From assembly GCA_022760735.1 (NCBI GenBank), contig JAKELU010000002.1, positions 79,262-112,149 on the forward strand: a stretch of 32,888 nucleotides of DNA. The letters run 5' to 3'. Positions 6,751 through 7,932 of the stretch are shown here, piece after piece. A model generated the notes under the pieces. The model had not been told where the DNA came from. It did no database searches and was given only the letters and a program-made list of their open reading frames with translations. The position numbers and the translations under genes were made by a program. The stretch's first letter is position 1, and every line of letters begins with the position of its first letter. This DNA comes from Firmicutes bacterium FC7. Its GTDB lineage: Bacteria; Bacillota; Clostridia; Tissierellales; Tissierellaceae.

Positions 6751-7131
6751 TTAACGATTTATTACATAATTAAGATTAGCTAGTCTTGAGTTTAGTTGTT
6801 GTATTAAAATGCTGTAATATATCTCATTAGCAGCTAGTTCTGTCATTTCAAGATCAATGTCTACATTATTACCGTTATCATTTAATGATGTGTTCTCTCT
6901 TTTCTTTACTTCAGGTTCAATGTCCTTAAGTTTTTTTGGTCCAAAATGTTTTTCATGAGTTGCCTTCAAAGTAAGCTTGTCCTTAGCTTGTACCAAGTAC
7001 TCCTCAAATTCAACCTTATTTACTTTGTAGTTCGGTGTATTTACATTTGCAATGTTACTAGAAATCGTTTTTTGTCGAAGTGATGCAACATCCAGTCCCT
7101 TCTTTATTAAATCATAACTATAATCACTCAT
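6751..7131 (-). CDS. flgB: Flagellar proximal rod protein FlgB
   Basis: First full-length structural gene of the basal-body operon; 126 residues, normal for FlgB. The N-terminal motif (LRQKTISSNIANVNTPNYK) and C-terminal motif (NEIYYSILIQQLNSRLANLN) are those of proximal rod proteins. The start is an ATG preceded by GGAGGAAAT. The ORF begins 36 bases after the U-tract of a branched terminator in the leader, downstream of a c-di-GMP-I riboswitch, so expression of flgB and everything after it probably depends on read-through of that terminator. Confidence 0.96.
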   Translation of the reverse strand: MSDYSYDLIKKGLDVASLRQKTISSNIANVNTPNYKVNKVEFEEYLVQAKDKLTLKATHEKHFGPKKLKDIEPEVKKRENTSLNDNGNNVDIDLEMTELAANEIYYSILIQQLNSRLANLNYVINR

Positions 7132-7167: not shown

Positions 7168-7265
7168 AAAAAATGCTTTTCCATCTATTACTTGATATCT
7201 TGTAGATTGCACTGTCCACGGGATAGCAAAGCTACCCATCTACAATATCGTATCTGGAAAAGCAT
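7168..7265 (-). terminator. Branched intrinsic terminator/attenuator in the flgB leader
   Basis: An 11-bp perfect stem (ATGCTTTTCCA at 7265-7255 with TGGAAAAGCAT at 7183-7173) is followed at once by six U residues (7173-7168). The roughly 70-base interior can fold further: TTGTAGAT with ATCTACAA, and GGGTAGC-TTT-GCTATCC. The inner arms are spaced unequally, so this is an RNA fold rather than a plain inverted repeat. It lies between the riboswitch and flgB and is the natural expression platform. Folding is inferred by eye. Confidence 0.75.
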
Positions 7266-7293
7266 GACATGATAAATAAAGTTTTTTAGTCAT
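7240..7293 (-). CDS. Putative 17-residue leader peptide between riboswitch and flgB terminator
   Basis: ATG at 7293 opens a frame of 17 codons, MTKKLYLSCHAFPDTIL, ending in TAG at 7240. GGAG (7305-7302) lies eight bases upstream, an ideal Shine-Dalgarno spacing, and is the very 3' edge of the riboswitch, where it may pair with UUCC of the 5' strand of helix P1. Ribosomes reading the frame would cover the whole 5' arm of the terminator (7265-7255). The ATG itself sits in an AT-rich hairpin (AGTTTTTTA/TAAAAAACT). No homolog is recalled. It may be a regulatory leader ORF or a chance frame; the ribosome binding site is the best argument for it. Confidence 0.45.
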   Translation of the reverse strand: MTKKLYLSCHAFPDTIL

Positions 7294-7301
7294 AAAAAAC
7301 T

Positions 7302-7397
7302 CTCCTTTCGGTAACTGGCTGCCATCCATTAATAAATGGGAAGGCCCTATAGCTTTGCGTCGCTGCCTTTCGACAGGTTTGCCGCTTTCGTGGAAGC
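7302..7397 (-). promoter_or_regulatory. Cyclic-di-GMP-I riboswitch (GEMM-I aptamer)
   Basis: On the minus strand the conserved GEMM-I blocks appear in order and spacing: ACGAAAG, GGCAAACC (7383-7376), a short helix capped by the GAAA tetraloop (CTGTCGAAAGGCAG), GACGCAAAGC (7361-7352), GGGCCT, a variable hairpin, GGCAGCCAG and GTTACCG (7315-7309). This class binds cyclic di-GMP. It starts about 15-20 bases after the SigA-type promoter and precedes the flgB operon terminator, so it is expected to stop flagellar gene expression when c-di-GMP is high, as known for flgB leaders in clostridia. Confidence 0.93.
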
Positions 7398-7557: not shown

Positions 7558-7932
7558 TCATCTAACGTCCTTATCTATAAAAAGTGATTTTTTACTCTTT
7601 GAGATATAGTTCTTTATAACCATATCCTTTTTATTGAGCTGCTGCATACTTTTAAGTAAAGAGTCTTGCTTTTCTTTAATTAATGTCTGCAGCTTTTTCT
7701 GCTCCTCTATAATCTCTTTTATTTTTTCAATATATTCCACTCTTTGTGCTTCTGGATATCTACTGAGTTGGAGATTCAAGGTATCTATCCTATCCATCTC
7801 AACCTGATTGTCCTTTATGATCTGTAAACCCGATTCTAGTTCTTTATCCCAATTTCTAAAATTATTTAATATTCTTTCAACAGCCCTATTTCTTTCTTCC
7901 AATAGCTCTTCATAGTTTATATTTGTGCCCAT
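7558..7932 (-). CDS. fliT: FliT-like flagellar protein (probable FliD/late-substrate chaperone)
   Basis: A 124-residue, charged, entirely helical protein with no signal or membrane segment. It overlaps fliS by 16 bases and follows flaG-fliD-fliS, the place where Firmicutes keep a FliT-type chaperone. The C-terminal tail, SKSKKSLFIDKDVR, is like the short tail seen on other Gram-positive FliT-like proteins. FliT proteins hold the filament cap FliD before export. The sequence family is very divergent, so the assignment rests on size, fold and position; a FlgN-like chaperone is the alternative. Confidence 0.6.
   Translation of the reverse strand: MGTNINYEELLEERNRAVERILNNFRNWDKELESGLQIIKDNQVEMDRIDTLNLQLSRYPEAQRVEYIEKIKEIIEEQKKLQTLIKEKQDSLLKSMQQLNKKDMVIKNYISKSKKSLFIDKDVR

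Follow-up and report, generated by a model that had tools for sequence, protein, structure and literature searches.

How might a predicted c-di-GMP sensor placed ahead of a flagellar operon act on the first gene of that operon, and does the short reading frame lying between sensor and terminator take any part in it? The question arises in a 32,888-nucleotide stretch of DNA from Firmicutes bacterium FC7 (hereafter the window), where the leader of the flagellar gene flgB carries a c-di-GMP-I (GEMM-I) aptamer upstream, with a family-model score above the curated cut-off. A preliminary description, made from the letters of the window, had proposed that c-di-GMP closes helix P1 over the ribosome site of a leader ORF, leaving the ORF untranslated and allowing the terminator to form, and that in the ligand-free state a translating ribosome blocks the terminator, leaving flgB to be transcribed.

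Anatomy of the flgB leader

The elements of the leader are collected in Table 1. The 17-codon ORF announced between aptamer and terminator is indeed present on the minus strand (7293-7240), and the last bases of the aptamer do form a well-placed Shine-Dalgarno sequence (SD), GAAAGGAG, at a spacing of 8 nt from the ATG at 7293. Fold prediction pairs 7265-7255 with 7183-7173 as the basal stem of the terminator, which is followed by six T at 7173-7168 (the first of them belonging to the stem), and the minus strand between 7310 and 7160 folds with a z of -3.8. The codons had also been said to run through the entire 5' arm of this terminator; they do cover the whole basal arm (7265-7255), but the ORF stops at 7240, before the inner 5' strand ends. 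A simple terminator scan, which permits loops of 3-8 nt only, gave no site, and a search of Rfam at relaxed thresholds gave no convincing second RNA family in the leader, its one match being at chance level on the opposite strand (12.7 bits, where the cut-off is 86). Upstream of the leader the window encodes a 124-residue protein without a Pfam match (7558-7932); a similar motif (IDKDV) ends a gene before flgB in several relatives.

Table 1 Features of the flgB leader in the window
Feature	Position	Strand	Basis
c-di-GMP-I (GEMM-I) riboswitch aptamer	7307..7393	minus	Rfam RF01051, 73.8 bits (gathering cut-off 35)
UUCC on the 5' side of the aptamer, putative P1 strand facing the SD	7392..7395	minus	sequence; could pair with GGAG 7305-7302
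GAAAGGAG, aptamer tail and SD of the leader ORF	7302..7309	minus	sequence; -13.2 kcal/mol with the anti-SD
A/U hairpin AGUUUUUUA-UGAC-UAAAAAACU, start codon at the loop	7280..7301	minus	predicted fold, -4.3 kcal/mol
Leader ORF MTKKLYLSCHAFPDTIL, 17 codons, ATG 7293-7291 to TAG 7242-7240	7240..7293	minus	reading frame
Basal terminator stem, 5' arm AUGCUUUUCCA	7255..7265	minus	fold; GCUUUUC 7263-7257 also complementary to GGAGAGU 7305-7299
GGGUAGCU inside the terminator, candidate antiterminator	7230..7237	minus	complementary to aptamer AGUUACC 7316-7310
Intrinsic terminator, 3' arm UGGAAAAGCAU and U tract	7168..7183	minus	fold; G001 and G002 have hairpins at the corresponding position
flgB, first gene after the leader	6751..7131	minus	PF00460 Flg_bb_rod, 3.8e-08

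The start signal is more than a chance occurrence: of the window's 1258 ATGs that open a complete frame, only 4 are preceded by an SD duplex as strong as -13 kcal/mol or stronger, and the leader ATG (-13.2) is among them. The openness of the frame by itself means little, since a leader frame of this length stays open in about 0.29-0.32 of shuffles. Nor is a short frame behind a strong SD unique to the window, since 3 of 59 other c-di-GMP-I loci have, no more than 60 nt from the aptamer, a frame of 5 or more codons that begins with ATG behind an SD of -10 or stronger (L244, L246 and L250; the 59 were hand-picked among the places listed for the order outside the large family f19, with L224, of 212 bases, left out).

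A start signal shared with an aptamer module

Of 248 genomes of the order, 20 contain the combination of aptamer tail and start codon, at 22 places in all when up to two mismatches are allowed; the window matches the pattern (tail GAAAGGAGAGUUU..AUG) with none. At 17 of these places the module precedes a transglutaminase-like homologue of about 260 residues (tblastn; the query, the protein at L181, is counted among the 17, and one homologue has an early stop); two members of this family match Transglut_core, and by eye the start of the protein is signal-peptide-like. In the window the module start opens 17 codons and not a gene of this kind. At the other places the frames comprise 22 codons in G001, 21 in the upstream copy of a tandem in G007, 8 in G040 and 55 in G006, the last two of which look like decayed gene starts. 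When a class-wide sample was searched with a shorter pattern, more modules preceding genes, as well as tandem pairs, turned up in 14 of 291 genomes; behind the upstream copy of one such pair (G287) lie a TTG-started frame of 26 codons and an ATG-started one of 4.

Because the same tail and start occur at 22 places, mostly before genes, the SD and ATG of the leader are best described as part of a widespread module, and the start of the ORF was probably inherited or orphaned. Short frames of this sort can arise behind the module when a gene is lost or when only its start is copied. A tree of 33 aptamers, a few of them sequences of uneven length, does not place those of flgB.

In G007 (L180/L192) the upstream copy of the module starts an orphan, signal-peptide-like frame that ends near the second aptamer, and the tandem looks like a partial duplication. 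At L255/L269, L258/L270, L259 and L271, pairs of c-di-GMP-I aptamers have a U run after the first and an SD with a start codon after the second, which suggests double control by transcription and translation.

Conservation of the leader in relatives

A DNA similarity search recovered a near-full-length match to the leader (81%) in G001, a genome of the same genus, and in no other of the 40 genomes or of the 28 family genomes searched (each set includes the window's own). G001 keeps the SD, U run, ATG and terminator, the last with a hairpin z of -5.7, and its leader ORF, which encodes MSKKLLLFVYNYAFPITVDVNG, overlaps the terminator as that of the window does; a 6-nt gap between the two preserves the frame, and a separate 2-nt gap lies before the ATG. 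Across 16 hand-aligned codons of the ORF the two species differ by 2 synonymous and 8 nonsynonymous changes, distributed 5/5/3 over the codon positions. The codon-like substitutions looked for are thus absent, and as far as this alignment goes nothing points to selection on the leader peptide. The SD, U tract and ATG are better conserved in G001 than the interior of the ORF, a pattern that would suit a working start site equally well.

In a third genome of the genus, G002 (assessed through L005, which has identical flgB coordinates), the flgB aptamer no longer scores. By eye, a possibly homologous ATG is followed by one codon and a stop, and neither the GGGUAGC domain nor an SD-led frame was seen; the basal terminator hairpin is retained, with a z of -2.6. 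Positions 560-815 of L005 accordingly present a leader with a decayed c-di-GMP-I aptamer and a retained basal hairpin.

We scanned 27 flgB loci, in 23 of which the script recognised an aptamer (L153 and L166 were missed though their aptamers are visible by eye, L152 and L171 show none, and the matches in L125-L127 fall within flgB). An SD-led short ORF is present in 2 of these 23 leaders, those of the window and G001, and in 0 of the 21 others. The expectation that ORF, start and ribosome site would be kept in related flgB leaders was therefore borne out in G001, though with an altered peptide, and not in the 21 other leaders scanned.

The Alkalibaculum flgB leader (L007) has two aptamers with similar tails, and the scan covered the one nearer flgB; neither tail is followed by an ATG, but frames that begin with TTG, 14-15 codons long, lie behind the upstream aptamer. 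By eye, a U run comes after each of these aptamers (1497-1577 and 1690-1771), as does a stretch resembling a promoter. In Soehngenia-type leaders (L006, L008 and L009, corresponding to flgB loci L125, L127 and L126) P1 seems, on visual inspection, to run on into a stem with a U run directly after it. The same inspection of L125, L126, L127 and L128 shows the closing aptamer stem apparently prolonged into a terminator stem with a U run, and in these four leaders the aptamer itself would appear to be the terminator hairpin.

Candidate routes from the aptamer to the terminator

We tentatively favour, at a little less than an even chance, an OFF switch in which c-di-GMP lowers flgB expression through an intrinsic terminator and the decision lies with the RNA, no translation being needed. 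With c-di-GMP absent, the aptamer segment AGUUACC and the adjoining GGAGAGU would pair with GGGUAGCU and GCUUUUC, holding the terminator open; with c-di-GMP bound, the aptamer would retain its 3' strand, the terminator would close and flgB would be off. The strong SD and ATG would be those of the module, and the short frame running into the terminator would probably be an orphaned or secondary start. The aptamer, the terminator, the ORF, the homology of the module and the complementarity are there in the sequence; we infer the switching, its direction and the dispensability of translation. The OFF direction is taken from the c-di-GMP-I switch of Clostridium difficile flgB, for which a terminated RNA of ~160 nt and a three-fold drop in flgB mRNA on induction of a diguanylate cyclase have been reported (PMC3649979). 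That element, Cdi1_3, resembles the window in its GEMM-I aptamer within a long flgB leader, its premature termination and the decrease in flgB with more c-di-GMP; a leader ORF at the aptamer is not mentioned in the accessible part of that report (PMC3649979).

The complementarity itself is plain: AGUUACC (7316-7310) and GGGUAGCU (7237-7230) form 7 bp, one of them G-U. For the combined duplex between aptamer tail and terminator the window gives -14.5, inside the span of -12.5 to -18.0 shown by ten flgB leaders that belong to a different family of the order (genomes between G195 and G215). A tail duplex as good arises in 83 of 500 shuffles for the window and 170 of 500 for G001, in a test of low power that 7 of the 10 control leaders also miss at p<0.05. 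For a downstream complement of the aptamer strand, p is 0.14 in the window and 0.33 in G001, each taken alone. The ten control leaders likewise have a c-di-GMP-I aptamer before flgB, and in 5 of them a downstream complement of the aptamer 3' strand is significant at p<0.05 (AGUUGCCA:UGGCAACU in three, 20-23 nt before a U run); unlike the window, they have neither an SD in the tail nor an SD-led ORF, and their complement lies nearer the aptamer. Across 71 aptamer loci 16 have such a complement at p<0.05, where ~3.6 would be expected if the loci were independent, and many of them are related.

G001 keeps GGGUAGC, which forms 6 bp with GUUACC. Its best combined duplex (-13.1) joins GCUUUUC with a nearer CGGUAG-type partner and not with GGGUAGC, so that the exact pairing is not demonstrated as conserved; the hairpin that GGGUAGC itself belongs to could also account for its conservation. 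Folding at equilibrium, applied to transcripts of increasing length with the aptamer core free or forced, was set aside as a gauge of switching: it placed the terminator in both states, and since the leader at L156, which has a perfect 8-bp antiterminator, also folds the terminator in both, such folding decides nothing (by eye, the automatic terminator finder used in this control had chosen other hairpins in 9 of the 10 control leaders and in the window).

The antiterminator and the SD compete, on paper, for the same bases, GGAGAG being common to both. An antiterminator pairing would occupy the SD, and for this reason the RNA-only and the ribosome-based models predict opposite states of ORF translation when flgB is on.

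The ribosome-based model is the one put forward by the preliminary description, and we consider it doubtful, if still a serious contender. In this model a riboswitch of the translational type, captured upstream of flgB as a ready aptamer-SD-start module, would have come to work as an attenuator of transcription: the aptamer would control initiation on an ORF of 17-22 codons, the ribosome would act as antiterminator by covering the 5' arm, and the peptide sequence would be irrelevant. The rarity of so strong an SD in the window, the service that the same tail does before real genes at most places of the module, and the retention in G001 of ATG, SD and a frame that reaches the terminator across a 6-nt gap all speak for this model. 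The lack of codon-like substitutions and the restriction of the ORF to two scanned flgB leaders speak against it. Coupling of transcription to translation is considered loose in Bacillus-type bacteria and their phylum, which also counts against a ribosome in this role.

How well P1 could hide the ribosome site bears on the same model. Across 25 modules the pairing of the strand 5' of the aptamer with the SD region averages -9.3, against -8.3 for swapped partners, a mean reached in 0.18% of 5000 permutations (a figure that, given the kinship of the sequences, falls short of a strict probability); in 8 of the 25 the module's own strand pairs less well than an average swapped one. On the whole this fits sequestration of the SD across the module set. 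The proposed pairing of UUCC with the SD is possible in the window, but it and its G001 counterpart are the weakest of the 25 (-5.4 kcal/mol each; the next is -5.6). In window transcripts of 195-232 nt predicted access to the SD stands at 0.40-0.46 without a forced aptamer core and at 0.27 with one, which speaks for the preliminary description; but in a transcript ending just past the start region GGAG is unpaired at 0.12 versus 0.13 whether the core is forced or not, and in G001 forcing the core brings no predicted change in access at any length tested. In both species the start codon is predicted to sit at the loop of an A/U hairpin (9 bp and -4.5 in G001), a further point against the model.

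The preliminary description knew of no earlier account of such an arrangement for GEMM-I. In the open-licence literature searched, as far as its accessible text extends, there was no c-di-GMP riboswitch that has an upstream ORF or leader peptide, or that works through an SD-type platform; riboswitch control of an upstream ORF (uORF) tied to transcription termination is known, however, from the Mbox and rv1805A of Mycobacterium tuberculosis (PMC12810186). Like the proposed ribosome-based model, that system has a translational platform acting on a small, termination-linked uORF; unlike the window, it senses Mg2+, terminates through Rho, belongs to an actinobacterium and has a conserved peptide (PMC12810186). 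In the B12 riboswitches of M. tuberculosis metE and ppe2 the riboswitch and a translated uORF act together (PMC11260477); these differ from the window in being translational OFF switches, and the accessible part of the source does not mention an intrinsic terminator overlapped by the ORF. Leader-peptide attenuators of the ilvB-II type resemble the window in a short ORF adjoining an intrinsic terminator, but they sense through ribosome stalling at regulatory codons, according to the portion of the source available (PMC11109978), whereas in the window the sensor would be the aptamer and the codons are unconserved. Of the marks of such attenuators the leader has a short ORF overlapping the terminator (7265-7255), and neither conserved regulatory codons nor a stalling peptide was found. 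The translational c-di-GMP-I module before transglutaminase-like genes shares its aptamer tail with the window; it differs in a start that opens a gene of ~260 codons and in a stronger pairing of 5' strand and SD.

An improbable variant of the RNA-only switch leaves the decision to the RNA, and ribosomes translating the ORF would only raise or lower readthrough, or shield the transcript from Rho; GGAGAG is common to both sets of signals and the genome encodes Rho (623 bits), but translation of the frame and action of Rho at this leader are, judged from the DNA, candidate activities only. It is very improbable that the start and ORF are a pure relic, left over from duplication of an aptamer with a gene start and with the aptamer no longer regulating flgB through them. 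The truncated frames behind the same module in the G007 upstream copy, G040 and G006, and the G002 aptamer that can no longer be recognised, are what such a history would leave; aptamer, SD-ATG block and terminator have nevertheless been kept together in the window and G001, and the aptamer tree gives no origin. Termination by Rho alone was rejected, an intrinsic terminator being present at the site even though the genome has rho.

The leader start site is real in kind and probably inherited, and has a candidate role for flgB. If the ORF works, the locus would offer a modular route from a translational to a transcriptional riboswitch; if it is idle, the leaders compared here suggest that one aptamer tail serves related bacteria in different ways: it can bind the ribosome, belong to a terminator stem or supply the strand of an antiterminator. 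With the tail used so variously, ideas on how riboswitch expression platforms evolve could be put to a direct test.

Within the terminator, the window and G001 agree closely over the interior between 7242 and 7190 (GGGUAGC..GCUAUCC..GGACA), to a degree that seems to exceed the needs of a plain terminator.
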